Source: Dioscorea cayenensis subsp. rotundata (lineage: Eukaryota > Streptophyta > Magnoliopsida > Dioscoreales > Dioscoreaceae). From it: a DNA stretch of 64,000 bases. The notes under the pieces are model-generated. The model saw only the letters and a list, made by a program, of their open reading frames with translations. It made no database searches and was not told where the DNA came from. This document shows positions 1,878-63,819 of the stretch, one piece after another. Position numbers and translations under genes: made by a program. The stretch is taken from the NCBI RefSeq assembly GCF_009730915.1, contig NC_052475.1:32425016-32489015 (forward strand). Reading direction: 5' to 3'. How positions within the stretch are numbered: the stretch's first letter is position 1; the number at the start of each line of letters is the position of its first letter.

Positions 1878-2537
1878 GCCATGCCCGACTTTATTGTTCT
1901 AGCCCAAATGGGCTGAAACCCAACACCTCTATTGCTCTTGTAACCCTCATTTTCACCACTGGTGGACTTTGAGATCTTTTCTACCCCATCTTTTGTTCAT
2001 TTAAATTTCTCCATGACTTGAAGGGTTTGAAACTATTCCTTCTTATTTTTAGAAGGTTTTGGTTTACCTACTTCATTAAAAAAATTACATTAATTTTTAA
2101 AAAATTAAATAAATTATAAAATATATTATAAGGAGAACCAGATACAAATACTATAACCACCAAGAGTGATTAAAAGATCAAATACAATAGCATATATAAT
2201 AATTAATATATAAAAAAAGGGGGAACAAATGGAGGCCACCCTTTATATTGATCTTGAATTTGATGAACTCGTTAAGTTCAACAATGGAAGATACTTATTT
2301 TAAAGGCATAGTTATGAAGTAGTATGAGCTGTGATACATTGTTAAAAAATACAATTAAAGAGAAAAATAATCATATGAGAATGTAGCTACTAACTACTTT
2401 CACGGTAGATGGTAACTCTTTTCCTTAGTAAGTGAAAGATATTAGGGATCAAGCTACTAATAAAAGATGAAATGAGCGAAAAATATAACATTGTATACAA
2501 TATATACTCTTCACACCAATTGAAATGAAATAAAATC
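807..2537. other. Gene-free stretch with repeat debris
   Basis: No gene is visible. The stretch holds a tandem duplication of about 20 bases (CATATGCCTCTTATATGCC, about 1148-1188), a (TA)n run at 1841-1874 and long AT-rich stretches. Wording such as GGTGCTGTAGCAATTT at 980-1000 looks repetitive, but I could not assign it to an element family. Confidence 0.4.
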
Positions 2538-3986
2538 GTGGAGGAATTTGCTTCCTACCCATAGAGGACGGATTTCGTTCTTCTGGAGGGGGGTGATTAG
2601 TGGCCTTCCAGCGTTCCGAGGCGGCATAACATGTGTTATCAACTTAGGAAATGAGACGCTTTTCTGGAAGGATCGTTGGCTTAATGGTAGGGCTCCAATG
2701 TATCAATGGCCTAACCTCTTCAGAGATAGTAGACAGCAGAACTCCCCTTTCATGGAACTTGCTCACTTGTTGGAGGATGCTCCTTTTTTGGAGGATAATG
2801 ATGTTGCCCAGGTTCGGGTTCATTGGAGATCGCGCAATCGGGAGGAGAAAAATAGTAAATGTTGGGTTTTTTCAAGAAATGGTTCTTTCTCGGTGAAATC
2901 TTACTACAACTTTCTCAATGATGGTGGGCTGCGTTGCAATGTGGCGAAGTTTTTTTGGAAAAAACATTGCCCCTTGAAAATCAATATCTTTAGCTGGCTT
3001 GTTTGGAAAGACAAGATCCTTACTCTTGAGAATCTGGAAAGGAGACGATGTAATAAACTTCCAACGGCAACCTGTGTGATGTGTCACTTTGACATTGAAT
3101 CAGTCGATCATCTTTTTCTATACTGCCCTTTCGCTAGGGAGGTGTGGGACATCTTTGGTAGGCTATTTCGATGGCCGGCCCCACCTACGACGATGAGTTC
3201 TATCTAGTGTTCATGGAGATTTAACGTTAGGCTAGTGGATCGGGTGGTTACTGATATTGTGATTAAGGCGCTTGTTTGGCATATTTGGTTGGCTAGGAAT
3301 GATAGAATTTTTAATGCTAAAATTCTTTTTGTGCATTGCATTGTTCTGAATATTGCTCGCATGATTTTATCGTGCCTCGATGCACTTGTAGATAACGTCA
3401 AAGGGAAGCTGGAGGACTCTATTTCTATGGTCCGGCGAAGCCTTGAGTTCCTGGAGCCTCAAGGAACGTTGCCAAGAGTGGTGCTGCTGCCGAGGAGGCA
3501 CCAGATCTGACCACGGGCTAGTCTGTCATGTCTGAGTGTGGGTCCGAGGAAGATCTTGCTATCTTCCTCTGGTGTTTTCTTTTCTTTTTTTTTTTGGGAA
3601 AGAGGAGCGGGGCGAACCCACTAAAGACCCAGGGACGTGCACAAGCCTCGGTGGAATAAATGGGGATGGGGCCGCGCTCACGTGGGTGCGGGAACCACCC
3701 ATACACATCCACTATTCACAACTCCCAGAAATGTGCCCTCAGCTGATAATCGAACTCTCACCACTCGGTGAGAGCTCTATCGGCGATCCGTGTACCAATA
3801 GACCCAAAGGTCGTTGGCCTCTGGTGTTTTCTTTTTGTCTAGCTCTTGTGTATCACCTCTTGTGATGCGTAGGGTTATTTTGTGGGTTTCTGTTTGTTCG
3901 GGTGTTATTGTATAATTGTGATTTATTTTAATCTAAGTGGTTTATCTACCTTTTCAAAAAATAAATAAATAAATAAATAAAAATAA
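2538..3986 (+). mobile_element. 5'-truncated L1-type LINE (ORF2 C-terminus)
   Basis: The open stretch from about 2548 to 3204 encodes the end of a plant LINE reverse transcriptase, including the zinc-binding region: W.DKILTLENLERRRCNKLP followed by CVMCHFDIESVDHLFLYC. It resumes after a stop codon at about 3205 with ALVWHIWLARNDRIFNAK. The element ends in a TAAA/AAAAT-rich tail at 3955-3993. AAATAAAATC occurs at 2528-2537 and again at 3987-3996 and is the probable target-site duplication, although its AT-rich sequence makes chance agreement possible. A SINE is inserted in its 3' UTR. Confidence 0.8.
3584..3817 (-). mobile_element. tRNA-derived SINE, copy 2, inside the LINE
   Basis: The insertion is bounded by an exact 18-bp direct repeat, CCTCTGGTGTTTTCTTTT, at 3566-3583 and 3818-3835. 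Read on the minus strand it starts near 3817 with a tRNA-like head (GGTCTATTGGTACACGG, then GAGAGTTCGATTATC as B box) and ends in a run of A near 3595-3584. It lies in the 3' UTR of the LINE at 2538-3986, so it is younger than that LINE. It belongs to the same family as the copy at 561-806. Confidence 0.85.
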
Positions 3987-7406: not shown

Positions 7407-10400
7407 TTAATGGTTCTTTGTTCCAGCAGCAGCAGCAACAGCAGCAGCAGCCACCTGGGAGATGTCTCTGCTTGATCTGTTATACTTCATGTGGCTTTTG
7501 ACAAGCTGGCCAGCAGCAAGAGCTGACATGAGAGAGAGCTCCCCAGCAAGAACAGCGCCAGCTATGATGGTGGCAAGAAGCCTGGAGTTTGCTCCAGGGG
7601 ATTCCAAGTTAGCACCCTTCACTCCTAGAAGGTCCAAACAGGCAGCCTGAGCAGCCAGCTGAGTCCCCCCTCCAACTGTACCCACCTGAAAGAAGAACAC
7701 ATTGATTAAGATGCATGCATGCATATGAAAACAAATTAATGCTCAGCCTTGCCATTACAAAGCTGGCATATTTACAAGGGAACAAATGCACCACTGACAG
7801 GAATTTAATTAGGCAGAAAAGTAAAGATTGTGAAGCAATACAGAAGTTCAATTCTTTCATTCATTTCTTTTTTCACTATGCACAACAACATATGAGCGAA
7901 GTGGATTTATCTTGTTAGTCATGACAGAGAAATACACACACACACATATATATACATGCATCCAAAATAAAATTCTCATATATAAACAAAAAAAATTTTA
8001 TGTTAATCCTGCAGGCAGATTTCCAGAGATGGGTAAAAGGCAGATAGACAGAAATACCATCAAGTCAAGCTAAGGTAAAAGGGCATGGGTAATAAAAAAT
8101 AATTTGATAGAGCTCCACCAGACAACTGTAAGGTTACTGGACAATTGAGTTATCTTCGAGTTTAGTACAGCAGACCAAAAACAAACATTAATTTATAGCC
8201 ACACAATAGACCAAGCAGGTATCCATGCTCAGCTACTCTTGTCATTCAGCCTTGGAAATCAAAGTAGATAATAGAAAAAACCAAAATTTCAGCCGCATTT
8301 AAGGTAGTGCTTAAGCTAAATGGATAGACAAGAACCAAAGAATCACAGGCATTAGTATGGCAGACCAATAATCCAAATTGATGCTATGTGATGACCGAAG
8401 ATGGGAAAAGACATTACCTCAATTGATGGCATAGTTACAGAGATGTGAAGATCTTTTCCTTCATTGACAGCTTCCATCATGGTAATGCAGTGGGAGCTTT
8501 CCACATTCTGAGCAGGATCTTGGCCAGTAGCAATGAAAATTGCAGACACAATATTGCTGGCATGAGCATTAAAACCACCAAGAGCACCAGCCACAGCAGA
8601 CCCAGCAAGGTTTTTGAGAGTATTGAGCTCCACCAGTGCAGGCACAGAGGTCTTGAGGACCTTCATTACCACCTCTTCCTTGATGATGGCCTCACAAACC
8701 ACTGATTTTCCCCGTCCCTCAATCCAGTTCACAGCAGCCGGCTTCTTATCGGAGCAGAAATTGCCTAATAACCAGCAGCATCCAATAAAAGAGAGTGAAA
8801 GTGAAACTCATGTTTGGCTTATATTGTAACCATGGCTAATGGTTATAAGAATTCACTCAATCATCAGCAAGTTATTTTTAGTTTTAGTGCATTCTAAGAT
8901 AATTCTCAATAGTTCATCCCTGAAGACTCACATACATTTAAGACAGATCTCACAAATCTGAAGGACCAGTACTGAACCTTGATCACCAATCAGATGTTAG
9001 GGTGACACCAATCACTCGAAATTAGGATCACTCATCCCCACCCATAACTAGCACCTTCATAAATCTTCTCATCCAAATGAGATATATGTGTATACAAACG
9101 GAAAAACAAGAAGCAAACCGCATAGAGAGTCAGACACTGACTTATCCAAAGAGATGAAAGTGATAGTCAACCCAAATCCCACAACTCACATCTTAGTTTA
9201 CCACACTTATGCTGGTCTGATTCATAAAGTACAATATGTGAAGGAGACTGAAGAATGATACTTAATCTTTGCTTAAAAAAAGATAATCTGCCACTTAATT
9301 AACACTACAATGAGCAAGCAAGACTATAAAATCACACATGAGACAAGAACATGGAAGGGAAAAACTTGAAATGATGAGATTAATCATAATCAAAGTGTTG
9401 GACCAAAGCTCACCAGAAATGCTAATAACTTCCATGTCGGGGAAGTCATCTTGCAAGTAATCTAAAACGTTCTGCACCCCCTTTGACACCATGTTCATTC
9501 CCATGGCATCTCCTGTGCTGCAAGAGAACCTCATGTACACATTCTTCCCTGCCAGAGCACATTGAATTCCTTGAAACCTAGCGAACCTGCTCGACCTGCA
9601 GAGAAATTTATGACATGTTCTTCAGAAAAATTATGCATACCAAAAAGGAAATGTTTTAGGAAGAAAATTTCCAACACAGGCAAAAGATTGAACATGTAAT
9701 GGGCAACTAAAATAACACAAGGAACGTCCAATGAACAAAAAGAAAAAGAAAATTATGCAAAATCTCATGGCACCAAGAGAAACAAAGCAGAAATCAAATC
9801 TATTGAAAAAAAAAATCAAGAGGAGAACATTTTATGAAAAGCATCCAAAAGCACAATTTTTTTAAAAAAAACATTTTCACATCAGTAAAGAGCACCTATT
9901 GAAGACGACGGTGAGCGTGTCAGAGTTGGATGAATCTTCCAAGAAGAACTTGAGTTGGGCTGCCCTCTTGGCACTCCCAAACCTCACAACGGGTGCCCTC
10001 GTCATCCCATCCCGTAACACCACGCTCTCGGCCCCGCCAGAGACCGCGATCGCCTTACACCCCCTGTTGGTGCTCGCAACCAAGCACCCCTCGGTGGTTG
10101 CCATGGGCAAGTAGTACGTCCTCCCGTCCAATGACAAAGGCCCCGCGATCCCCACCGGCAGCGTGACGTACCCGATGGGCATCTCGCAGCACTGGCCCAG
10201 AATTGACTGGTAATCAAACCCGTGGAGAGGGAGGCCCTGCATCGCACTGCCAGTGATTCTTCTGAGCGCCTCGCGCCTCACCCCGGCGGCCCTTTGGCAA
10301 TCCCCGAGTTTCGATTCGAGGATATACGACGGAGTCTTTCCGGAGACTACGGAGCTTACGATCTCCTCATCGTTATCATCAGGATAGAAAGATGGGATCT

Positions 10401-10833
10401 TGGCGTCGGAGTTGTCAACGAGTAGGGGACAGGGCGGAGGGGGTGGGTTGGCCGATTGGGCGCTGGAGGTGGGAGGGAAGTGACGGTCATCAACGACGAC
10501 ACCTTCGTCGATTTCGTCCTCATTGGAAGGAATAGAGGACTGGACGTAGGTGATGCCGAAGAAGGAGATGAGGTAGATGAGGGAAGCTACGAGGGAAACG
10601 AAGGCAAAGATCTCGGAGAGGGTGAGGAGGTGGAGAGGGGTAGAAGTGCGAACCTTCTCACGCCATCGGCACATGAGGAAGTAGAGAGCCGCCATGAAGA
10701 GAGCGGAGAAGATTTTGTTGGTATGGCGAATGGGTAGAGGGAGGGCATCGGAGGCCTGAATGCGCACAGGAGAGGGCGCCGGGATGCGGTCGGAGGCTGT
10801 GGGCTTCGAAGGGAGCCTCCGACGGACGTCCAT
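7407..10833 (-). CDS. HMGR: 3-hydroxy-3-methylglutaryl-CoA reductase
   Basis: Reduces HMG-CoA to mevalonate with two NADPH; this is the committed step of the cytosolic mevalonate pathway and the enzyme sits in the ER membrane. Four exons: 10833-9896, 9595-9414, 8764-8418, 7685-7407, all GT-AG, giving 1746 nt (581 residues), a normal plant length. The start [11 protein letters not shown] is the usual plant N-terminus. Two membrane segments follow (about residues 41-57, [13 protein letters not shown], and 75-97, [17 protein letters not shown]), then a Pro/acidic linker. The catalytic domain has [10 protein letters not shown] (Glu), [10 protein letters not shown] (Lys), [11 protein letters not shown] (Asp) and [11 protein letters not shown] (His). 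The C-terminus ends in an Ala-rich run encoded by GCA/GCT repeats. No lesions seen. Confidence 0.97.
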
Positions 10834-10900
10834 TGTTACCGGAGGAGCTAATGGCTTCCCTTCGATGGCGGCAACGAGAGAGAAAGAGATGCTCCGTTCG

Positions 10901-10909
10901 TTTTATATA
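10901..10909 (-). promoter_or_regulatory. Probable TATA box of HMGR
   Basis: The minus strand reads TATATAAAA here, about 70 bases before the HMGR ATG. This leaves room for a 5' UTR of about 40 bases. Just upstream are three GGACTC repeats (10913-10931) and a run of CACTTTT-like repeats (about 10934-10981). Confidence 0.6.
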
Positions 10910-31440: not shown

Positions 31441-32808
31441 TGTGCCAAGGGACCCTTGGTGCCAACATACTATGAAGCCGTTGATTTCTTAAAGCTACTC
31501 TACTTCATTTTCAATAGTGTGGTAAATTAAAATTTTTACATAAATTATTATTTATTATTATTGTAAAATGCAAAAATCATAGAGATTGAGTTTTAATTGA
31601 CTTTTGGAGGGTGGACCTGCCCCTAGTTAGAGAGCCACTCGTTAGGGTTGCTGCTAGTTAGTGTTGCCCTGAGTCTTTACTCAACTTAAAGGTAGTTTGT
31701 TTATGTTCTTTTATGTCTAGTTTTTATCTTTTATATTCAGCTTGTTTGGTCAATTACCTATTCTTTATGGACTACCAATTTTTTGTATCATTGTTTATGT
31801 TCTTTCTTTGTGTATGATATTATTCTGCTAGTGTAATATCTTTTGCTTTTAATGAACGTGATTTATTAATTTTATTTTATTTTTTTAAAAAAATTGAATA
31901 GCGAGAGAGGGACTTGGTTGATAACCTTCTTATCCATCCCGACTAAGATCTTACATCAATAAAATTGAATAATGATAAAATTACTAAATTCCCTCACAAT
32001 TAGTGGGCCATTAGATATATAGGTTTTTTTAAAGTAAAAAAATAAAAAAATCTATGAACAAGTTATGAGTAGGATTTGGGTCTTATTTGATTACGTCCCT
32101 TCATTCAAAAAGGGCTACATTGAATGACTCAAGTGTAATGATAATTAAATGCAGCTTGGAGTTCTTTTAACGGGATGAGACCAAAGGTAATCATGAGGTG
32201 TCAATAGCTAGATAGCTAGTGAGAAATTGTTTGTTCTTTATCAGTGTCACCTTGAGCTTCCCCTACCAAAGTAGTTTTCTCATATGTGTTTGTTATATGT
32301 TGATATCGTCGATGTAATTGTGATTTTTTTTCTGCCTATTGCATGTAGTTATTATCAATGTAGTTGCTCTGGGCCTGATTGTACATTGCGCCTACCTAGT
32401 GGGTTAATTTATGTTTATCCTAGTTCTTATTTTTGTGTCTTTTTTCTAACATGATTTATGTATTGCCTAAAAAAAAATTTAAAAAGGGGAATTCGAACCC
32501 TATCGTATTAGATAAAGTCGTATCAGTGAACTTAGAAAGTCAAGTGCAAAGTTTGGATTAAATCAGACGGATGAGAAATAATTTATGTCAAAATTATGTA
32601 GGAGGTTATCTGCACTCACAATAATATAAAAAAAGAACGGGTTATATCTGCAAATATCCCACGCAAGAAGTCCTTAAAACCAAGAACAATAATAATTCGG
32701 ATCCATTTTGCGAGTTTGACCAGAGGCCTCTGATGCTGCGCGATTCATTGCTGGACTTGGGCTAGGGTTTGCTCCTCCTCCGGCGATCCTCGGCTAGGGA
32801 GTGTCTCC
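31441..32808. other. Intergenic, repeat-like tails and the RRM gene promoter
   Basis: No gene is seen. The stretches at 31680-31900 and 32220-32470 have the wording of plant LINE 3' ends (TTATGTTCTTT..., AACGTGATTTATTAATTTT; AACATGATTTATGTATTGCCTAAAAAA), both on +. From about 32700 base composition changes to GC-rich, marking the 5' UTR of the RRM gene. Confidence 0.4.
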
Positions 32809-35800
32809 ATGGCCCATCACCACCGCTCCGTCTCCGGATCAAGCTCTAGCTCCGGCCTCCACTTCCCTGGTTCCTCCCCCTTCGGGGACACCACCTTTAC
32901 CAAGGTCTTCGTTGGGGGTCTTGCGTGGGAAACCAATAGTGACGCCCTGCGCCGCCACTTTGAGCCCTTTGGAGAAATCTTCGAGGCCGCCGTCATCTCA
33001 GACAAGAACACCGGCCGTTCCAAGGGCTACGGCTTTGTTGGTCCTTCTTTCCCTTTTTTTTTTTCCTTTTGGGATGAAAAAAAAAATCAAATTTTTTATC
33101 TTAATTTCTCTTTTTCTGTTCTTTATTTGGTTCCTTTCAGGTTACCTTTCGCGATCCGGAGTCAGCGAGGAGGGCATGCGCGGACCCTAGCCCAATCATC
33201 GATGGCCGGCGGGCCAATTGCAATTTGGCATCCATGCGGCCTCGTCTAGCTCCCCCTCATGGTAAGTTTTGTTTCCTTTCATTGTTATTCAAGTTAATTG
33301 TTTTATTGCATTTTGTTTGCCCGTTCATTGCATGTTATTTTTCTTTCTTCGTAATGAAATGCTTTTTTTCACCTTCTAATCTCATATGCCATGAATTGAG
33401 CTTTGTGTCGTGTTTGCTTTATGTGTGATGAAATGCTCGAATGCTGATAGAGGTATGACTTTGTGTTTCGTGTCTAAATTTGAAAGTAGTTCAATCATGC
33501 TGGGTAATTTAAGTAAACTGCAAGATAAAATTATTTAGGGATTTATCATTTGAAATTTTGAGACATATACTATTTAAATCCTAAGTTCTATTTGTAAGTC
33601 AAGTGGGGTCATAGAGACGTAAGGTCATCTATGATAAAGAGCTTCTCCGATATTTTAGTAACCAATAAAATAATCTAACCAATTGAAACACAAAGACAGA
33701 AGAAAGAGTGGGTTTTTTTAGTAGATTTGTGGACGAGGGCTAGTGTTCAAGTTAGAATAGGAGATACAAGAATGGATAGTGTAAAAGGGCTTTGAGTATG
33801 ATTTCAAAGTGTACCTTCACATTAGCATGGGGCTTTTCTTTGAGCTTATGTTTTCATCAGGTGTAATCCCTGAGCTTATCCTGAATAATTTTTATTTTTT
33901 CAAAATTCATTTTTTTTGCTCCCAATTAATGTCTCGAATAGGGAGCCTATGACTATGATTCCAAATAGGTCTACTTCTATGGGTGTATTTTATGTACATT
34001 TCTCAAATTTCTATCAACTAAAGTGTTGGTTTGAGACAGTGGAAAATTAAATTGATCATATGTATATTGTGCATCTCTCTGCTACTATGCTAGTCAATAA
34101 AGATCTGAAGAACTAATGAATGATAAAATCTGCATAATAATTGTAATTCTCTCTTCTAATTCTCATGAGCCTAATTGGCATTGTTTGGATTGTCATTTTA
34201 ATAACTCTTCTATTTCTTTTAATAGCACACTCAAGATCTGTGGGACAACATGGCAATGTGCCTGTTCCCAGAGAAGCTTCTGTCGGAGGTTCAATTTATA
34301 ACCAACCAGTTCCATATGGCTTTCAGCAAGGTTTTACATATCCTCCTTTTGGGTATGTCTGCTTTTGTGGATTTTTTTCTCCCATATATATCGCTATAAA
34401 ATAGCTAAATTGCATAGATATACCTCTGAGTATTGAAGGGCATTCCTTTTGATGAGCCACTAAATTTTGTTACTTCAGAAAAAAAGAAAAAAAACCCTTG
34501 CACTTTCATTTCTCTCCAATATAACCAATTTATTCATTCAAGGTGTGATAGAACATATGGCAATCCACTATTCTCTTTTAACCCTCTAAAAGGTCAAAAA
34601 TATTCTTTCGTTGCCCCATTTACAAAAATAAATGAATAAATTAATGCATAATATGTTGAATAGAATTAATACATATTATGAATAATATCTTGAAAATACA
34701 TTTGATTATGAAAAAGTAAATATTTTCACTAGTTTTAATATAAAAGGTACCCCTCGACACTTAAAACAACCTGCAAGGGGTTTGTTAAAAGAAAATATTA
34801 AACCGTAGTGGTTAAAAATTTTTTTGTGAAGGGATTGATGGAAGAGAGATAAGCTACAATCTGAAGTATTCGAGGGTGAATCTTGAATGTTGTTTTTTAT
34901 ATTTGCCAATCCAAACAGATAGCAGTTATGTGCATCTTTAATGCTCCTTGACGCCAAAAGCAACTAGCATATTTAGCCATACAAATTGATGTGATAGAGA
35001 CATAAATTAGGAAGATAAAATGAGAACTCATCTAAATCATAGAATTATCCGCCAAATTCAAAAAATTATCCATGAAAATTTGTAGGTATTCTGAAGATTA
35101 TGGCAAAAATTATAAGATTCTTTTTCTTTTTTCTTTTTTGAATTTGTAAGAAGATTGGGAAAATTAAAAAGTTAAGGAAAAAAATAGAGGAAATGTTTTC
35201 CGATGATATCTATCCATGTATTTTGATGTTATAATAAGTTTGGAACACCCTTCTAAGGCTCTCAAAATGGATGAAATAATTGTTCCAAAAAAAGGAGTAT
35301 AGACTTCCCAAAGAGTGAAATTTAATTCAGTTATGTTTCAAGATGTGTGGATCAAGATCAGATGTGTGGATTTATAATTTGATTGACCCACTGCCTAAAT
35401 TTCATCATTATTAGATTATGACTAGTTATGAAATTTGAGCAATTTCAAAAGCTTATATGGAAAAGAAAAATATTTAAAACTATAAGAAGTTTTATCTCAC
35501 TGAAGATTTTAGAATGTACATCACATATACCAGTTAGGATTTTATTTAGTATATTTTATCCATACTTAAACTGATGCATTAGTTCTAACATTGGAGTTTG
35601 TTTTGAATGCATGCAATTACAAATTTGACAATGTAAATATGACTAATATATTTTTCAAGGTTATATGATAAAAAAAACCTTTTCCATAAGGCATGCTCTA
35701 ACCGTGTCTGGCAATAAGTAGAAATTTTGTGCATAATTCTCTTTTTCCCCCTTTCTTTAGGTTGAGTTTTTTCAACTTCAAATATCTGTGGCGTAAATCA

Positions 35801-43600: not shown

Positions 43601-46600
43601 TGGTTCAGTTCAAAACTACCTATCTGATCTAACAGATGTAAATTGGATATGAAGTTATTCATTTGTTCAGGAGTAACCAGCCCTGAAGCAGAAGTAACCC
43701 CTGGAGCCACACTATCATAAGATCCCCCTCGAACAACAGCCATCACTGATGGATTTTGAAGAGCATTTCCTTTTTTCTTTGATGATGGAGTAGCAGGTGT
43801 CTTCTGTGCTTTTTCTTCTGTTTCAGTATGAGAGACGATAAAGAAGGAAGCATCAGGTGGAGCACCTTCTCCCAGCAGGTGTAAATGCTCAAATCGTGAA
43901 AGACATGTTAATACATGTTCCCATGCTTCCTGAAGATAATTACCATCTTCAATAGCGATGGATATTATAGCCTACAAATTTAACAAAGTTAGACACCAGT
44001 TTTTGATAAAACAATCAAGAATAGAATGAAAATTTCACACTTAAATAGGACCTACCAAATAAAAAAAAAGGGGGGAGTAAAGAAAAATGGATTGTCAGCA
44101 TTACATGCTTTCTCTCAAAAGTCACCATTCCCACAGAACTAAGGAGGTTAATCATTAGCGAGTTTTTATTCAGTCAGTAGATCAAAGATCATAAGGGTGG
44201 AAAGGAAAGGAAGCTACAGTTTGGCTCACATCTCATTGCTGGAAGCACATGAAGATGTAATTAAGAACTTACAAATATCAAATTCATCTATGAGCAACCA
44301 TTGGCATTATCTCTATAGCATAACTGACAAGATAAGATAGAAATTTAATTAGATTCTATTAAAGGAAAAAAAACCTTTATCAGATTCAATGTTTTCCTTC
44401 ACATTTCTAACAGAAAATTCAGTTGTGCCATTCCCAGGGTATTTCAGACAACTGATCAGTATGAGGGGCTTTCACAGAAAAACCACATCCCAGAAGCAAA
44501 TCTTAGAGATAAAAAATTAAAAATTAAAAAACATTCTAATGGTAAACCAAGGACTCACTAACCACAATACATGGTAATTGATGCTTCAACAAGATAAATG
44601 AGCCTTTTAAACAAACAATAGAACATGATGAGTCTCACATTGTCTCAAATCTTACCTTCATAGCATCAACATTCTTTTGCTTCATGTCAGCAACACAGTG
44701 GAGGTAGGTAAATTTAGCCACAGATGTAACAAAAGCATCTCTCTGTGTCTGCATGTGCATAACTGACGTGACATGAATAGCATGTCTAAACCCTTGCAAA
44801 CTATAGTTTGTGGCAACTTTATCATCACTTTGGTCAAGTGTCACACTGAATGCAGCCATCATGGGAGCCCAGCTAACCTCCATCATAAATCTCAGAATTG
44901 CGGTGTCTGTGACAGCATAATATGCTGACCTGCAATTGTTTTGAAAAGAATCGAATGAGAAAAGCAAGATTCCATCCCATGATCATCTGCATGCCATTAC
45001 TGTGAAGTAAACTTACTCTGATTTGCCAGACTTAGCTTTAATCTGCTCCTGAATACGCCTGATGAGCATGTCATTAGCTCCTAAAGCCTTTTCTTCAGGC
45101 TGCTTCCAATTGACTAGGTTAAAAATGCTATCCAAGCCTAAAAGCTTATTGATGCTATTTGACTGCTTGTTTTGTGGAGCAGACGAATCAGCATTCATTT
45201 TGATTTCATTTTTCACAATCTGATCATACAGAGATCCCAAATAATCCTCTGGCAAATCCTTTCCGTCATTGATCCCACGGTTATTCCTAATAAAATCTGC
45301 CTTAGACATCTATAAAATTGCATACATGAGTAAAAAATTAAACCTGTATATTGTCTAACAAACAATACAGGGAAAGAGAGAAACTCCAATATTCACCTTA
45401 TCTTTGACCATGCTGTTGTGTGCATCTGTATTTAGCATTATCACTGAATAAGCAAGAACATATGCTGTATCGGCACTGGAGAAAGAACTAGGGTTGCATT
45501 TACAATAGCGTTCTGCAAACTTTTCCATGATGCGATCAATTTTCTGCGCTTCCCCAGGCAACCTGAAGCCTCGTAGGAAAAACCTAATGGCTTCACCAAA
45601 GTCCATCCCTTCAAAGTTGAGAGAATCCACATAAGCATGCATTACTTTCAGAGGGAAGTCATCCCTTTCACCTAAATAATCCCCAATCATTGTCTCATTC
45701 AGACCAGCAGTGTTTTTCAAGAAAGAAGCAACATCTTCAGGAGAACTGCCTATCTTTTTTGAGTTGATCAGAAATTCAATGCCCTTCGAAGGTTTCCTAT
45801 TAAACAGTGCAATACCTTTCTGCATTAATAAGTTTACAACATAAGTGGCATAATCATTTTTCAATAGAAAAGAAACAATAATACAATAATAAAATTATAG
45901 TTTGGACTGGACAGTTAAACAGAACCGTGATTTTACCTGAAATTCTAACTTAAATGCTCGCCGCTGCTCGAGACTGGCAGCATTTTCAGAATTTACTTCT
46001 GAATTGAGATCAAAATCAGTACCATTTCCTTCTTCTCCCTCTACTGTACTAGGATTCTCTGAAGAATACTCTGTGTCAAGCATTGGAGAAAATTCTCCAA
46101 TGCGTAATAGTTGGTCCATCCAGTTTCCCATTGCTTTAACAATGCATGACAAGCACTTCACAGACTCAATGCGAAAAGTAGCATCCTGGGCTGGAGACAG
46201 TGTTGTCACAGAGCCAGGAGGAACACCAAGGGCGGTTTTCAGAAGGCCATTGACAATCCTGAAAAAATCTGATGGAATTATAAGTGTTCTAATATTTGGT
46301 AAAACTAAGTTGCCAGAAAAAAAGAAAAAGAAAAAGAAAAAGAAAAAGAAAAAGAGAAAGAAAGAAATATAATGATTAGTTAGTAAGGTCGAGGATATGT
46401 ATCAGGATTTTTTTTTTCTCACGAAAGATCAGGTACACGGCGACATGTGTCGTTGTCACAAAAGCATGAAAGGCTAAACTAAAGAATAAAATGTATTGTG
46501 TACCTTTCAAAAACATTAGGCGCATCCATGTCACAATCATAGTTCACAAAAATGTCAACAATAATTTGTGGATCGTGACATATTTTTTCTAGCAAGCTGA

Positions 46601-49196
46601 GAACTGTCATTTTTTGTAGAAAGCTGGGCTGAAGCACATTTTCAACAACTCGAAGGACAAGCATGGGGAAGAAAATCCCAATTTCCCCTTTCAAACCAGA
46701 TCTAAACCGTAGCAGCAATCCCATGAAAGATGGAGCAAAGAAGTTGAAAAATACTCATAGCAGATAATGCACTGTATTTTTCAACAGTGATAAGCAGAGA
46801 TACTGCTTGATAGTTCCAATAAACCTGTGTAAAAAAGGTCAAAATAGTTAACACACAGAACTGGCAGTACCAAAAACTCATCATCGAGGAATACACAAAA
46901 AAAAAAAAAGAAAAGAAGCACACAGGTGAGCCAAAAACTTATCATCGAACGGAATACCCACAAAAAGAGTACATCAGTGAGACAATAGAAGTATATATAT
47001 ATATATAAATGAATGAAGACAAAACAAACGACAATCAAGATTGCTATTTCTCACTCGGCATCATTTAAACCTTGACAAATAAAATACATCTTTCACTGAA
47101 ATATGACAAGAAAAAAAAAACAGAAAAAGAAAAAAGAAACATGTCAGAAAAAATCAATGAACATAAAAAAATCTACGAACTTCCAATTCACATAAGATAC
47201 AAAATCGGCAAATCAGACCCTTTCCTCAGAAATTTGTAGAAAGCAGAATATGAAACTGGAAGGCATCCATCAACTGATTGTTTGTCTTCATTGAAGGCTA
47301 AATGGATTTCCAGCCGCCCAAGTCAAATGCTATCAACAACCCAACTATTCAGGTGGCTAACATTCACTTCAACTTGCATCAGGAATAATCAAATTCATTG
47401 AATTTAAAAAGTACCACAAACACAACCGTTTTACTAGTTTGACATTAACTGATTCAATTTCCATTCAAAACAAAACCAGAAAGATGAGCGGTCACCAAGA
47501 ATTCTTCAAGGAAAGAATTCAGAGAATTTACCAACATTTCAGCATCAGACAAACAAAATCAAACCAGCTTCAACTGAATATTAATCAAGCAACTTCACAC
47601 TTAACAAAGCGAAATTAAGCAAGCCAGTTAAGATCGCATTCATAGGGGCATATTTAATCCTAGAAACAAACAAAATGACAAAACCAAATCCAGGGATTCC
47701 AACATTTTTAAGGCTGATTGGAAACTTATATACTTTACAATGAGCCATACTTGTAATCTCTTATCAGTTCTTTAGGTACATCAACCCTTTTCTTCTTAGG
47801 ATAGTGGCAACAATACATGAAACTGCCACCTTTTTTTCTCTTTTGATGCTCTGCCAAGTGCCAAGTTGTTCTTGTTGAACGATTGTATTATTCATAAGTA
47901 GCCTAAGAAAGCTACGAAAAATCATTTATTTAGGCACAAAGAATGTATTTTATTCTCTTTGGCAGTTTCATGACCTCAAATTACAATTGCTATTTCCTAC
48001 CAAGTAATGAAGGTTCTCATAGCAAAACTTGTTTTATTTCATATTGTCAATATTTTTCTCAAATTTTCTTTTCTCAATCACATTTCCTATCCCCTAATCT
48101 AAGATTGAAATTAGAAGAACTTAAATCACAAAGTAATTATCAAGAGTAGTTTATATATTGAAAAAAAGTTTTTTTAAAAAAAAACTTGCCTCTCATTGGT
48201 TCGCCAAACGGGTCCAGAATTGTCAATGACCATCTTGAGCAGCTCCAAAGACAAAACCTTCCCCCTCATCAAAAGGGGATCCTCTGCATTCTCTGAAGTT
48301 GGGAACTTCATTGAAAATCTGCATAAATTCCTGAACAAGAAAATCGCATCCTCTCTAATCATACCCAATCCTCCTCCCTCCGTATCATCCCCGCCATTAG
48401 TCTGCTCATCCCTGGACTCTCTCTGTGCTTTTCTCTCCATTGAAACCTCCGGATCACTGCCTCCCATCTCCTCGTTGATGAAATTCTGCGCAGCTTGGAC
48501 CACTGTTGAATCATTCAGACTCTTGTCGGAGAGATCCAACATATCTGCAATTGATACCGACTGGACCCTAACCTCCACGGTGTCGGCCTCCGCCCGAGCA
48601 AACACGAAGGCCAGGATCTGAGCTAGGACAGCTTTAGCGCATACCTGATTGACCGCACTCTGGCTACCGAGATATACATTGTAGCAGCTCTTCACAATCT
48701 GGACCAAGGCCTCCCCGCGGATGATCACGGAGGGAGACCGTACGGCCGCGATGAGGACTCTCAACATCGCAAGCTCGATCCCATCGTCGCCAAGCCCCCC
48801 GCACCCACAGATGGATCCGAGCAGCCTGGAGGCCGAGTCAAGGGGCTCTTGGGGATCAGATCGGTGATCAATCTCTCCACGAAAAAGGCCAGCAGAAAAG
48901 AGCTTGTGAGCACACTCGAGAGCGGGATCAAGGACCTTAGGAGAAGCAGAGTCCACAGCGAGGGAGAGGGGATATAGCGCGAGGTCGGCATCAGCAGAGG
49001 AGAGGCCGGCGAGTGGTGATGCGTAGTCGGTCTCGGAAGATTCGGAGATGAGCTCAAGTCGATCAAGGGCAGATTTGCAGGCAGCAACAAGAGCGGAGTG
49101 CTTCCGCCATGCGGCGTTCTTGATGATCTTATCGAGGGCGTGGCCGAGAACGCGGCCGGCGCGGGAGGAGCCCCCGAGGGTTTGAGAGGCGGCCAT
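40631..49196 (-). CDS. BIG1/BIG4-like: BIG-type ARF guanine-nucleotide exchange factor (Sec7)
   Basis: Activates ARF GTPases at the trans-Golgi network for vesicle coat recruitment. Eleven exons: 49196-48190, 46824-46504, 46258-45937, 45819-45397, 45309-45017, 44929-44656, 43971-43463, 43346-43025, 42843-42510, 42416-41752, 41242-40631; 5082 nt, about 1693 residues, the usual BIG length. The N-terminus ([20 protein letters not shown]) is of BIG1/BIG4 type. Sec7 domain in exons 4-5: [12 protein letters not shown], the glutamate finger in [20 protein letters not shown] and [16 protein letters not shown] regions follow. Intron 1 has a GC donor (AG then GCAAGT at 48189). Exon 2 contains two small insertions (2 and 1 bases) bracketing an out-of-frame stretch with a TGA at 46757-46755; the frame is right on both sides. 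If real, this would stop the protein at about residue 360; otherwise it is a sequence error. Confidence 0.93.
46316..46368. repeat. (GAAAAA)n microsatellite in a BIG intron
   Basis: A purine repeat in the 245-base intron between exons 2 and 3, close to the 5' part of that intron on the minus strand (CTTTTT when transcribed). Confidence 0.9.
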
Positions 49197-49798
49197 GGCC
49201 GGCCGGGTATCAGATCAGAGAAGGCATGGAGGAGAGAGGGCTTCAGATCTCGAGACCTCGTCGTCTCGGCAACGTTTTAGCAAAAAGAGAGCCCCTTTTT
49301 TGAGGCACCGAATGCCCAAGAGGAGGGGTATTCTGGTCATTTACCAGAATGGACAGAGAGCCATTTCCGGGTTTCGGATCTTATAAATTCATATTAAATA
49401 GTCGTATCTTATCGGATCTTACAACTTCGGATCTACGGCAAAAGGATCCGAATTTGGACGCCTTGGCTCACTTCGTCGTCGTCGTGGTGGTTTTCTTCTT
49501 CTTCGTTTCCAGGCTTCTAGGTGGTGTACCGTGTACAGGTTGAGCGGCGGAACAAATTTTGCTTCTATTTTTGAAGATTCGTACTTAATCTGTTTGACAA
49601 AATGCTTGCTTTGTACCAGCGTTTGTTAATTGGTTGTTTGTTTGTTTGTTTGTTTGCTTGCTTGCTTGTGGTCTTTATTGGTTTTTCTCTTGTGCGCTGG
49701 ATCTGCTTGAAGAAATGCTTCAGTGAACTTGTTGATATCATTTTTACTGTATCCTGATTTGCAGTCTCTGATCATGTTTGTTTGACAGCAGGAGGTTA
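49197..49798. promoter_or_regulatory. Divergent promoter region of BIG (-) and MED18 (+)
   Basis: The two start codons lie 602 bases apart, head to head. The BIG side is purine-rich. At about 49476-49510 a GTCGTCGTCGTGGTGG and TTCTTCTTC stretch, and at 49629-49667 GTTT/GCTT repeats, precede MED18. No clear TATA on either side. An intron in the MED18 5' UTR is likely but not proven (acceptor-like TTTGACAGCAG just before the ATG). Confidence 0.6.
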
Positions 49799-57125: not shown

Positions 57126-58523
57126 CTCTCTCTGTGTATCTCTGTCTCTCAGTCTCTCTCTCGCTGAGTCTCTTGGGCACCAGCATGCGTTATTCTTGCT
57201 GGAAAAGTGAGCATAATAAACCGCGGGAACACCCGGAACCAGGCCACCTGCTTTAGATTCTACGACGCTTAAAAGCCCTTCAATGCTTTGTTATTTACAA
57301 GAGAGCCACTCTGAATATTGACTCACTGCTATATATATATATATATATATATTTTTTTCCGCCCTTTAACTTACTACCGGTTGTTTTCATTCATTTGTAA
57401 CTTTCCTTTATCCAAAATATATATATATATATATAACATTTTACAATTAAAAAATTTATTTTTACAATATAGTGGATGATAATGATGAGTGCAACGTTGT
57501 CAATAATAAAAATTATAATAATGAAAGCAACACTAACATTATTTATCAGTTTGTTTTTTATATATATATATATATATTCTGTGATGTGCTGCTCCTACTT
57601 TATTTTTTAATTAGTGCATATAAAAGGGGTAAAAAGGTAAAGAAAAGTTGAAAGGACAAGTACCCCTTCTGAATCTGATTTGTGAAAACATAAAAGACAA
57701 AGTAAAGCATCGACTTCCAGAAGATTGAAAACTATGGGTCTGTTGGACGATGGAAATTTGACAAACTCACCCTTTGATTTCTTTGATCCATGTTATGGAC
57801 TATAGACTATAGACTATAGACTATAGACTATAGAGGTTGGCTGATGGAAATTAGTGCCTGTTTCTTGACCTCATTCCATTCATATATTAATTTGATTTAT
57901 GCCTTTATGGGTTGGTGGATCCTGCACTAATAATCTGGGTTAAGTTCCCCAAACAAGACTGATTACAAAGTGAGTTTAGCAAAGTTGTAAAAGATTGTCC
58001 CTCACTCAATAAAGAGGGTCAGGGATGTTAATTGGTAATGACTTTTAGCAGAATCTTAAATGCCAAGAATATGACCCTTGCTTTCTCTTTACCAATTAAG
58101 GATCTGTGCTTAATATCCAATGAAAATGACAGATTTATTTTTTTAAATAAAAAAAAGGTATTTCAATATTTCTTAGTTTATATATATATATATACATATT
58201 ATACTGAGGAGAAAAGGAGGAAGAAAGTTGTAGAAAACAAAATATCATGTGAACTAGATAGATAAAACATAAACCCCATGATTTCGTGATTTATTTATTT
58301 TTCAATCTGAATTAACATTTATTGTTAAAAAAACAATATTATTATTTTCATTTCAACACAGGAGACAACATAAGTTAAGATAGTTCCTAATGAGAAGCAT
58401 ATCATCCACATAATCAAATCCTGGCCAAAAAGAAAACAAGAAATAAATAATTTACAAAATGAAAGTTTAACCAACATTAGTCACTGAATACCATTTACTG
58501 CAATTCCCATCATCTCTGTCAGA
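57126..58523. other. Intergenic between PFP and bZIP60
   Basis: It contains the PFP promoter (CT/GA-rich just before its ATG), three TA runs (about 57331-57352, 57418-57436, 57560-57577), a heptamer repeat at 57798-57834 and the bZIP60 3' UTR. No gene seen. Short open frames here are low complexity. Confidence 0.5.
57798..57834. repeat. GACTATA heptamer tandem repeat
   Basis: About five perfect head-to-tail copies of GACTATA. Short, non-coding. Confidence 0.9.
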
Positions 58524-59705
58524 CTAGAAGTCTAGAACAGAAGGGAGACTTGGTCCATTGACAACACCATAAGAACATGAATAATAATAAGAAGACTTCA
58601 TCCTAGACCTCATTCCTCTATACCTCCTCCTCAAAATGATCAAATGATATCCAAAATCATATTCTGCGCCCTTATTTTCTATCTTTTGGACCTCCAGAAC
58701 GGGACCGCTTTCTGGCCGGCTTGCTCCCTTTAGGTTCAGACTGGACAGGCTGGGTGCTAGGAATAGGCAAACAATGCTCATGAGCCAAAACAGGGAACCC
58801 AGCAGCAGGGATTCTGAAGATAATAGGCAGCAGCAGTCAGTTAACACGAAAAACTTCACACACACACACATCATCCATGCATCAGTTCAATTCAAACTCA
58901 TCCAGGAAGCTTCTCCAACAGGTCAGTTGCCATAGTTACAGAAAATAAAATCAAGAAAATATAGGAACTGTGAATGCTTGCTCTCAAGCAAAAACTTGAA
59001 CAAATAGGTCTGAGAAGAACTGACATTGTTCTTCACATGGAACACATCTTTTCAAATGCCATACGAGGATCAGCTATACAAAGAGAACTGCTAAACAGCA
59101 CCAGCCAGCTCCATGAGGAAGTTCAACTAACAAGTTGTTCTGTGCCACAGCCTTTCAAGCTTCATGTAGAAACTCCATATTGAACTAAATACCTACAACT
59201 CTCAAGCCTAGTATTTGGCAGCAAATTGTTTTGATTCAAACTATGACAATTAAGTATTTGATCCTAGAACTATAGGGTACTGTCATATCCAATGCATCAT
59301 AAGAAAATGAAGAACCACCCAAATGCCTTTTAAAAATAAAATCCTAACAGTGAATAAATCACCACCATCCAACATTGCTCAAATTCCAAAGTGTCTGCCT
59401 TAACAAATTTGCAAAATGATGGGCCTATGAGCCAACCACAAGGATCTAACCAAAGATAAGGAACCAATACTTAAGTCTCCAAGGTGTGGCAGACCAGGCA
59501 AAGGAATAGTTAATATCCTCCCTACATTGCTTGGGATGAGAGAAGACCAGTTTAAAATTAGAAATGATGATATTCCCATTAGAACTAGAAGCATCTTTAA
59601 TTGACTGTAAGGAGAGAAATAGTTAACTAAGATAGTTTGGTCATTTACATATGTTCCTCAGGGTGATATTGTTGTTAAAGAAGGGAAAAACAATCAAAAG
59701 CAGAA

Positions 59706-59739
<34 letters not shown>

Positions 59740-62657
59740 CTTTCAGTCTGGAGCACACTTGAAAAATATGTCTCAGAGGAAGCAAGGCTCTCGTGTGAAT
59801 AAAAGCAAAACCTGGCTAAAACAATCCAGACACAGTTACCTAGCAGCTTAAAAAATAAGCTCAACTATCCCTCACGTAAATTATTTCAAATAAATTCAGA
59901 TTTTGCCTCACAGTAGACATTGTGATACTTCTGGATGTGAGGGAGATTCAACAACAAAGTAGAATCAACATAAAAATTACCACTTGATCAAGAATATATG
60001 TTTATAAAATGGCAAAATGCACAAAATTCCTGATAATACCAAGGTAGTCAGCATTGGCCTAGACTTATGAACCGGGGAAGGCCAAAGGTCAAGGATCAAG
60101 AGGTTTGACCTCAAACCGGATTTTAAATTAAAATATAAAACACAGTATATTAAATAATATTTAATTTTTATATCAAATGTACAAAAGATATTAAACAAAA
60201 CAACTAAACAAGGCTCATTTCATATTTAAAAAACAAAGCCCTATAACATCTAAACTAAATCCATGTATTACCTCATAAAAAAAATTTCTTCTAATGTTAA
60301 CATCAAATTCACATAGGATACTAAATAAAAAATTAACACTTAAATCCACAAATATTAGCCCGGGTCATGATTTATTTAAAAATTAGTTTTTTTAAAAAAA
60401 ATTTATTTGCCCCTATTGAACCGCCTAGGTCACACAATTTTAGCAGATCCCTGCCTACACAGTTTTTAAGGGAGAACCAAACCACCCTAGCCTCCAAGTT
60501 TAGTTCAACCAGATCCGACTGGCAATCCTTACTACACAGGATAATACTAGGTTGCAGTAGGATTAACTATATATTGCTGCATACAGAAAGGCTGTTGCAC
60601 ACGTGGTAGTTGAATAACACAAATTCCAATCATTCCTTCATTAAACAGCTTCCACAAATAAACTCAAGTGCAACTAGTGGACCTCCAGGTGACTCTTCGT
60701 TCTGGATTCCAGGATGACAAAATATAAATCTAGGGGAGCTAAACACAGCTGGAATCAACTATCTCTAAAAGTAACTTTCATGGCTGAATTCCGCACATCC
60801 CTTGTCATATACTTCTCTTATCTCTTTTTCGGTTTCTACATCAAACAAGATTCAAATAAATCCCAGCTCTAGATTCCAGGATACTATATACACAAATTTA
60901 ACCCAACATATGGTAAGATTGTTCCTTATCCCCACACCGTGAATACATTTTATTTCAAACAATGGTTGGCCATGATTGTTCACTGAGATGACATTGCATT
61001 GCTTGGACTAATAAATCTTCACACTTGGGCAATAGAAGCTCAATGACGCTAATACTCCGAAAACATATACCATCTCAACCACAGATACCCAAATCAATAT
61101 GACATGCATAAGACTCTCAACAGTCATTGATATTATTAACCACAATAAAAGGTCAGCCTATGAAATATATGCCAAACATGAGATCTTATATTACAGAAAA
61201 ATATTACATCTAGGTTCATTAAAAACAAAAGTAAAGTTAGAATTTGAGACCAAATATAGTTCAAGCATATAACAAAATGGAAGGGAGCACTTAGCAAATA
61301 ATCAAATAAAGATTATTGAAATATGATAAAAGTTTCAAAAAATCACACACAGCAAAATAAAAGAAAGTAGAATGAAGATAGAGGTGATGCTTTAAATAGG
61401 CATGTTTCTTACCCATCAAGAGTACAGCAGACTCCTGTCTGGCTGCGGGAGCACCAAATGCCCTCCCATTCTGCAAGCATTGGCGGAGTGCCAGGTTTTC
61501 AGCAACACAACACTGAAAGGCATACCTTAGGCGCCGGCACTCTGATTCCAGATACCTGCTCTTCATCTCTAGGTCCTTAACGTAAATCTTCTTCCTCTCC
61601 CTAGATTTCATGGCAGAATCTCTATTCCGCATCTGCCTGAAAATTCCAATGCCCAAGACATAAGGTAGTAAGCAACTACCCACAACGCATTCACCAGAAC
61701 AAAAGACAGCTATAAATGTCTCAAATACATTTATTCAAGAATATCTTCTCCAGAGTTTGTTTGATTAATTGTTGTCTTTCTCGCTCAAACTAATCAATAA
61801 AACAAACATTGCACTAACTGAAATAAAATCAGTTTTTTTCATGCAATAGAACAAGCATTCCAGGATTTCACAATAGATACAAATGGTTAATGGAAAAATG
61901 GGAAATTCTAATAAAGAAAAAATAATCAGGAAAGCAAACTTCTATACTAACTTTCGTCTATGTGAATTCAGTTCACCTTTTTTTCCCTGTACAATTTTGT
62001 TCCCAAAGCTTCTCTCATATTAACAGGCAAAAACTTGACCACAATATAAATCATACACCTGAGCTAGAGCTACTTTTAAGATTAGAAACAAATAAAAACC
62101 ATCGATGCCTTTAAAACATAATTTTGGTTCGAAAACCCAAGCTATTCATACCTTCTCCGCTTCTTAATGATTGAATCATCTTCAATCTCGTCCACGACGA
62201 CAAAAGACTCGTCCTTCTTCTCAATTTCCTCGCTCTTCCCACCATCAAGCCCTGAAACCCTATCCTTCTTCTCATCATCATCGCTCTCCCCGTCATCAAG
62301 GCCCGAAGCCCCATCTTTCTTCTCATCTTCATCGCTCTTCCCATCGTTAAGGCCCGAAACCTCTTCCTTCTCATCATCGCTATTCCCATCATTGGACCCC
62401 AAAATATCCGAGAAGAAATTATTCTCAAATCCCTCATGAACTTCCGGCGTCTCGGCACCACCATCATCGTTCTCTAATAAGAACTTCTCCAGCTCCTCCG
62501 CCCACGAGGAGTTGGAGTCCGCCGGTGACAGCGACTGCTGCTCCGGCGAAGGGAAATCAAACAGGGATATGTCGCTGAGATCCAAGCTTGGAACTTCATC
62601 GAAGTCTCGCAGAAGGGCTTCGAGATCGAAATCCTCAACGCCGTCGACCTCCGCCAT
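58524..62657 (-). CDS. bZIP60: bZIP60-type ER-stress transcription factor (unspliced frame)
   Basis: ER-membrane bZIP factor of the unfolded protein response, activated by IRE1 cutting its mRNA. Exons 62657-62152, 61636-61413, 58813-58524: 1020 nt, 339 residues. Residues 1-165 are very acidic with three tandem 17-residue repeats (SGLNDGKSDEDEKKD type). Then the basic region KKRRRQMRNRDSAMKSRERK, KIYVKDLEMKSRYLESECRR and a leucine zipper. Exon 3 encodes one membrane segment (GSLFWLMSIVCLFLAP, about residues 249-264) and an Arg-rich tail. Around 58780-58808 lies the IRE1 region: CTGCTG (CxGxxG) in a hairpin. Excising 20 or 23 bases would switch to a frame ending at 58672 that replaces the membrane segment with KPARKRSRSGGPKDRK. 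The start is ATG 62657; the in-frame TTG before it is not a start. Intron 2 is 2.6 kb. Confidence 0.93.
58780..58813 (-). promoter_or_regulatory. Predicted IRE1 cleavage region of the bZIP60 mRNA
   Basis: In the mRNA, the last base of exon 2 and the start of exon 3 form GAA-U-CCC, loop UGCUGCU, GGG-UUC: a stem with a one-base bulge, the loop holding CUGCUG registers of the CxGxxG IRE1 consensus. Removing 58802-58780 (23 nt) or 58799-58780 (20 nt) gives the same downstream frame. Both sizes are known for plant bZIP60 orthologues. I could not place the second hairpin with certainty; the palindrome GCTCATGAGC covers the expected 3' cut. Confidence 0.7.
58814..61412 (-). other. bZIP60 intron 2 with repeat debris
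   Basis: A 2.6-kb intron, much longer than intron 1 (about 515 bases). It contains a (TA)n run (59709-59737) and a repeat-like patch at about 60050-60540 (CCGGGTCATGATTTAT, TTGAACCGCCTAGGTCAC, AGTTCAACCAGATCCGA) with the wording of decayed inverted-repeat elements. A second patch at 59400-59600 also looks repetitive, of unknown family. No conserved protein seen. Confidence 0.5.
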
Positions 62658-63819
62658 CAAATCTATAGAAAAATTAAGAAGAAAAAATCGAAGAGGTTTC
62701 GCTAAATCGATGGATTTTTATAGGATGCGATTCCTTGGAGGGAAAGTAATCAAAGCCGGTGGGAAAGCTATCTTCAGGTCTTTCATCTTATACGGTGAAA
62801 CCTCTTTTCTTCCGTCGATTTTGCGTTGAGATTTGGTTCAAGATTCATATCTACGGCGGATGAAGTGATGTTATGCTAGTTATTATTCTATAGCGAATTT
62901 TATGAAACTATAAAGAGTTTGCCGTCACTCGACCAATAGGATTTCATTCTGGACTGGAGGAGTTGGAAGGTTGCCTCGAGATCTGGTTTTTAATGCATCG
63001 AGATACGGTTTCCTTAAGTTACTCATCCCAACCATTTTTTTTTTAAAATTGTGAGAGATCAAATTCTCAGTAAAATTTGAAATCGAGTAATTCATGCCTT
63101 TTGTTTTAATCTAATTTTAAACTCGCCCATGTTTATCAGGGAAGATTAAAATAAACTCTTGAGTTTGGATAATTAAAATCACTGGTGTAATTTAATGATG
63201 AAAAAATTGTTAGTGTTCTTGTTATTTATAAGTTTCACATCTTTGAAGCCATATTGTGATCAAGTCCTCAGCAATCATTATAAATTCAATATAATTAGCA
63301 AAGTTAATTAATAGCCTGAAACAATCAGATGTATTTCACTTTCATCATACTTCTTCCAAAATGGATATATAATCTTCTTAATTAATTATATGTACTTTTG
63401 GAACAGTGTGTCTGAAATTTTTCGTTTTAATTAGATCTCGCCTTGATGGGCATGCAATGCAACTAACTTGCCTTGATGAAAAAGACAAGAAAAGCGAAAA
63501 AGCAGAGCTATAGTAGATTAATGGAGGAGGATCTATAGGGCTGTGAGTTGTTATTGGTATGTAGTGGAGAGGGAAGGAGGAGCACCAAGAGAATGTGGAG
63601 CATGAAGTGCAGTGCAGTGCAAGCGAGGAGTCCATATTCATTTCCAATCTCCATCTTTGTGAACTGGCACAATGATTAGAGTTCAACTGTGGGGTCAATG
63701 GCAATGGCTATAAAGAGGAGATCATTTGTTAGAATGCATTATGCATGCACTCAAGGCTTAAGCTGTTTTTTAGCATTAGTACTAGCTAACTACTAAGTAC
63801 TGCTGATTTTTGGCAGAAA
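62658..63819. other. Intergenic, bZIP60 promoter and promoter of the right-edge gene
   Basis: No gene seen. A TATA-like TATAAA lies at 63709-63714, about 105 bases before the ATG at 63820. The minus-strand open frame at 63378-63704 has no recognisable features. Confidence 0.5.

Follow-up and report, generated by a model that had tools for sequence, protein, structure and literature searches.

The bZIP gene analysed here raises the question of where IRE1 would cut its mRNA, and of what must happen to that mRNA before it can be cut. The gene lies on the minus strand of the window (the whole 64-kb stretch of DNA under analysis) and has three exons, namely exon 1 (coding part 62152-62657), which encodes an acidic N-terminal region and the start of the bZIP basic region, exon 2 (61413-61636), which holds the remaining bZIP domain, a predicted hairpin for the 5' IRE1 cut and the opening 15 nt of the putative IRE1 intron, and exon 3 (coding part 58524-58813), which is dual-coding, with stops at 58526-58524 in the unspliced frame and at 58674-58672 in the frame read after IRE1 splicing. 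The joined exons encode 339 aa. Both bZIP_1 (PF00170, 34.8 bits) and bZIP_2 (PF07716, 30.4 bits) of Pfam match residues 164-206 above the cut-off, and the N-x7-R of the bZIP, read by eye, is present as NRDSAMKSR. C-terminal to the zipper the protein reads ESAVLLMESLLLGSLFWLMSIVCLFLAP, and the unspliced frame of exon 3 encodes GSLFWLMSIVCLFLAP; the peak 19-residue hydropathy for each is 2.28, which bears out the hydrophobic segment (SLLLGSLFWLMSIVCLFLA, residues 245-263 of the unspliced protein, 58755-58811) that a sequence-only reading of this DNA had seen in exon 3. Within exon 1, a 51-bp tandem repeat (62212-62378, 3.3 copies) encodes an acidic 17-aa unit (SGLDDGESDDDEKKD...) in the N-terminal region.

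A search of the genome (584 Mb, 2249 contigs) with the exon 2-3 protein recovered the gene's own locus (E 1.1e-42 and 7.7e-10) and no second bZIP60 copy, the next match (E 5.2e-6, 48% identity) falling in the bZIP part; the locus is the sole bZIP60-like gene found in the genome searched. The IRE1-type RNase domain (PF06479) was found in one place of the same genome, on contig C14, with matches in two exons (100 and 48.6 bits), and the adjoining frames carry kinase-like motifs, read by eye, including HRDLKPQN, SDMGISK and related ones. The sequence itself shows a bZIP gene with two adjacent C-x-G^x-x-G hairpins (^ marks a cut) in its normally spliced mRNA and with a last exon open in two frames; cleavage by IRE1 we infer by homology. 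Very probably the gene is a plant bZIP60 and IRE1 cuts its mRNA at the twin hairpins, the 23-nt IRE1 intron being itself split by a spliceosomal intron. Under ER stress, IRE1 would cut the mRNA after 61428 and after 58806, the 23 nt (CTGTACTCTTGATGG/AATCCCTG) would drop out and the ends would be rejoined, presumably by plant tRNA ligase, at the predicted junction GGAGTCTG^CTGCTGGGTTCC, and the 339-aa ER-anchored protein would give way to a soluble protein of 282 aa bound for the nucleus. Such a mechanism is already established in several plants, and what is new here is a bZIP60 with a corrected cut site, that is, the correct annotation of its spliced form and protein, together with a nested intron that merits a survey.

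The IRE1 intron was placed by joining the printed primers for unspliced and spliced mRNAs of three species with the intron lengths reported for them. For maize, the unspliced-specific primer (GTACTCACGGAAACCCTGCC, given as the mRNA strand), the spliced-specific primer (GTCNGCCGCTGGTTTCCCTGC, where N is a mismatch introduced by the authors) and an intron length of 20 nt from sequencing (PMC3369818) yield the excised sequence CCGTACTCACGGAAACCCTG, which ends inside the loop corresponding to the window's CTGCTG. The Arabidopsis primers (PMC3373542, PMC9302528), combined with an intron of 23 nt obtained by sequencing, give GAGTCTG^CTGTGCTCTTGTTGGAATCCCTG^CTGTTGGGTTCCC, and the wheat primers, combined with the 20-nt length obtained there by sequencing (PMC6927285), give AGGAGTCTG^CCGTACTTTCGGAAACCCTG^CCGCTGGTTTCCC. 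In Table 1 of the wheat paper (PMC6927285) the names of the unspliced and spliced primers seem to be swapped, r1 covering the spliced junction and r2 being mostly intronic. In 3/3 species the end of the intron thus falls in the loop whose counterpart here is the CTGCTG of exon 3, by homology. Among the papers listed in a literature search for primers from other species that match the site, none is by its title a bZIP60 splicing study.

By this homology the window reads GGAGTCTG^CTGTACTCTTGATGGAATCCCTG^CTGCTGGGTTCCC across the predicted cuts, and the predicted IRE1 intron comprises 23 nt, of which 15 nt (61427-61413, CTGTACTCTTGATGG) close exon 2 and 8 nt (58813-58806, AATCCCTG) open exon 3, with the second cut expected after 58806. 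Identity with the Arabidopsis bZIP60 intron extends to 21/23 positions, and since this match spans the exon 2/exon 3 junction, it also supports the splice junction 61413/58813. The CTGCTG hairpin of exon 3 is accordingly predicted to be the 3' IRE1 site, and exon 2 to hold the 5' site in its CUG^CUGU loop. The loop repeats CTG, and cutting one CTG further on (26 nt) would preserve the frame as well; 23 nt is preferred by homology.

Hairpin 1, the putative 5' site (61418-61436, minus strand), reads AGGAGU-CUGCUGU-ACUCUU, with a 7-nt loop to be cut after 61428; its stem can be extended by an outer C-G pair (61437/61417) to 7 pairs, one of them G-U, and it is homologous to the maize and wheat sites. 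Hairpin 2, the putative 3' site, reads in full GGAAUCC-CUGCUGCU-GGGUUCC, the outer two bases of its 5' arm (GG, 61413-61414) being the end of exon 2 and the remainder, AAUCC-CUGCUGCU-GGGUUCC, with an 8-nt loop, lying at 58794-58813. In an alignment of four sequences (window, Arabidopsis, maize and wheat), neither loop varies at the C, G and G of C-x-G^x-x-G, and standard pairs fill 44/44 scorable cells of the 13 pairs when the structure is imposed. Sliding the partners by 1-3 columns lowers pairing to 24-65%, a control biased toward a structure that was itself derived from the same four sequences. One pair of hairpin 2 differs on both sides, being U-G in the window and Arabidopsis and A-U in maize and wheat. 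Of 500 column shuffles, 93 did as well as the real alignment in paired percentage and covariation score, and 436 in the count of double-change pairs; with four sequences, too few for the purpose, the covariation test is underpowered. Twin CxGxxG hairpins with no fewer than 4 pairs per stem arose in 57/5000 shuffles of the whole mRNA and in 17/5000 local 300-nt shuffles, and in a whole-mRNA series with longer stems they arose in 10/6000 (at least 5), 3/6000 (at least 6) and 0/6000 (at least 7). No twin hairpins were found in the unspliced 64-kb window on either strand, because the spliceosomal intron splits the pair. Rfam, applied to 58400-62700 at a permissive threshold, gave 0 matches, though a match here would be interrupted by the intron.

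Folding of exons 2-3, which had been suggested as a check on the sequence-only reading, varied with the context. The minimum pair probability of hairpin 2 stays at 0.45-0.64 over eleven flank lengths. That of hairpin 1 ranges from 0.01 to 0.95 with the flank: it is 0.94-0.95 with 15, 25, 30, 40, 60 and 80 nt, then 0.91, 0.87, 0.69 and 0.31 at 100, 150, 200 and 300 nt, and only 0.01 at 20 nt, where a rival hairpin prevails. In these models the predicted stability of hairpin 1 depends on the flank, and this counts against our preferred explanation. The rival, an exon 2 hairpin at 61446-61424 (GCAGC-AGAC with GUCU-GCUGU), can hide the 5' IRE1 loop, and it prevails also in the unspliced fold on the donor side. 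For the unspliced pre-mRNA, the predicted best folds around donor and acceptor contain neither hairpin 1 nor hairpin 2.

Removal of the 23 nt would open a second frame in exon 3. The tail so encoded, AAGFPVLAHEHCLPIPSTQPVQSEPKGSKPARKRSRSGGPKDRK (44 aa; 58672-58805 with the stop codon), has its first codon beginning at 61428, and the predicted IRE1-spliced product of 282 aa ends in ESAAGFPVLAHEHCLPIPSTQPVQSEPKGSKPARKRSRSGGPKDRK before a TAA at 58674-58672. Translation confirms that taking out 20 or 23 bases leads into this frame and to the basic stretch KPARKRSRSGGPKDRK (58675-58722), as the sequence-only reading had stated; we regard the stretch as a putative nuclear localisation signal. In the IRE1-spliced form the peak 19-residue hydropathy is just 0.57, that is, the membrane segment is gone. 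The start of the tail, ESAAGFPV, is the same in wheat, with ESAVGFPA in Arabidopsis and SAAGFPALA in maize being similar. In Arabidopsis, ORF2 covers residues 219-258 (40 aa) and carries the NLS at its C-terminal end, the tail strengthens activation, a change in the NLS cut activation by about half, and the serine at residue 246 is reported to be conserved in dicots and monocots (PMC12781897). If Arabidopsis ORF2 starts at the same codon, the corresponding 28th residue of the tail would be serine here too.

The gene resembles Arabidopsis bZIP60 (At1g42990) in its predicted 23-nt intron, its two loops, its unspliced frame (ESAVLLxESLLLGSLxW) and the ESA(A/V)GFP at which the spliced tail starts; where the Arabidopsis tail ends in an NLS, the tail here ends in the basic stretch, a putative one; the tail has 44 aa vs 40 aa in Arabidopsis ORF2 (PMC12781897). 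With maize ZmbZIP60 and wheat TabZIP74 it shares the hairpin pair and, as predicted, the cut pattern and the loss of the anchor via a frameshift; those two, however, known from the primers to their transcripts, have a 20-nt intron and a shorter bridge between the hairpins. Monocot IRE1 sites are reported to tend toward such a shorter bridge (PMC3369818), and the predicted 23-nt length and longer bridge of the window would fit the dicot pattern. As in XBP1 of animals and HAC1 of yeast, IRE1 would cut within a pair of loops, each of which has three conserved bases, but the introns of XBP1 and HAC1 measure 26 and 252 nt, and the proteins gain a transcriptional activation domain there, not a basic nuclear tail. 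The loop of hairpin 2 has 8 nt vs the 7-nt loops described for HAC1 and XBP1, which counts against our preferred explanation.

Where exactly the cut falls was answered differently by the sequence-only reading, which had IRE1 excise 20 or 23 bases up to 58780, with the CTGCTG loop as the 5' site and a second site near 58780. Such a deletion would leave the downstream frame and the basic tail unchanged, and in one fold weak GGC/GCC pairing flanks the region with a probability of 0.42. On the other hand, no CxGxxG motif is present from 58804 to 58699, the published primers of maize, Arabidopsis and wheat put the intron upstream and make the CTGCTG-type loop its 3' site, the deletion would take the coding of GFPVLA out of the conserved tail start, and hairpin 1 of exon 2 would be left unexplained. 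We therefore hold this placement to be highly improbable; that it nonetheless gives the correct frame is owed solely to 20 and 23 having the same remainder modulo 3. The core of that reading, a bZIP60 regulated by IRE1, is well supported by the comparisons above, and its error lies in the placement and in having missed the 5' loop of exon 2 with its predicted cut after 61428. The difference has a practical side, in that the 23-nt shift would be visible by RT-PCR across exons 2-3, and a search at 58780-58802 would miss the deletion.

The gene might also descend from bZIP60 and have lost IRE1 control in its lineage, the protein staying membrane-bound or being freed by proteolysis. Competition of hairpin 1 with another fold in some contexts speaks for such a loss, but neither hairpin, none of the six key loop bases and neither of the overlapping frames is damaged, the genome has an intact IRE1-type RNase domain, and we judge the loss to be very improbable. 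It could further be asked whether the shifted open frame and its basic end are a functionless product of chance. Open frames of at least 44 codons appear in 12% of synonymous recodings (2410/20000), and by itself the length is nothing unusual; frames of this length that also carry a 16-aa stretch of net charge 7 or higher, however, appear in just 28/20000, the tail begins as it does in three other species, and for Arabidopsis, effects of the tail and its NLS on activation and nuclear localisation have been measured (PMC12781897), which makes chance an extremely improbable explanation.

An IRE1-cut bZIP60 of this form would have one unusual feature, which the sequence-only reading did not mention: a spliceosomal intron of 2599 nt (58814-61412, minus strand, GTAAG...TTCAG) interrupts the predicted 23-nt IRE1 intron after its 15th nucleotide and splits it into 15+8. 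Provided that the gene model is correct, nuclear splicing has to come before hairpin 2 can form, and the 3' IRE1 site would be assembled by that prior step. The sequence-only reading had rightly seen that the CTGCTG hairpin forms only after normal splicing, and had drawn only the last base of exon 2 into its 5' arm; the arm takes the last two (GG, 61414-61413). In Arabidopsis bZIP60 the 23 bp are placed 'within the second exon' by a figure legend (PMC4398384), that is, in one exon, in contrast to the split by the 2599-nt intron here, whether that intron was gained or kept. No description of a nested or interrupted IRE1 intron was found among the matches listed in the open-access literature, which is weak evidence of absence.

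Nesting of this kind would mean that unspliced or intron-retaining RNA cannot respond to IRE1, and, if the nested intron is functional or widespread, that nuclear splicing is a required first step in one plant stress arm. Gene models that mis-call the exon 2/3 junction would hide the IRE1 site. The exon junction complex is expected about 20-24 nt upstream of an exon junction, and by this rule it would sit at 61436-61432 (AGGAG), in the 5' arm of hairpin 1. We speculate, with little confidence, that the complex could mask hairpin 1 up to the first round of translation, which would clear the complex away; such gating, if true, would tie stress readiness to translated mRNA. Retention of the nested intron would yield, by reading on through 61291-61412, a bZIP protein of 283 aa with a new, partly hydrophobic tail and an intronic stop.

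A recent insertion of a mobile element was considered as the origin of the nested intron and looks unlikely, the genome matches being interior and none of those listed touching the ends. In the repeat search, in which 40/60 candidates were scored, 39 of the 43 non-self genome matches listed fall in intron positions 1012-1389 with 67-77% identity, the others being one match at 894-997 and three simple-repeat matches near 1674-1707. The interior stretch, at about 60024-60401, appears to be an old dispersed repeat fragment, with at least 39 partial genome matches at 67-77% identity.

Upstream of the gene, the patterns ERSE, ERSE-II, P-UPRE, UPRE and UPRE-III gave 0 matches in 1 kb, a point against the preferred explanation. 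What comes closest to a stress element within this 1 kb is an ATTGG box followed by TGACG at 62927-62937, upstream of the start codon. Elsewhere in the window, coding stretches were observed for an HMG-CoA reductase (9877-10902), an RRM protein (32734-33249) and a Sec7-family ARF activator with DCB, HUS and Sec7 domains (45355-49214), together with a retroelement zf-RVT fragment (2524-3207).
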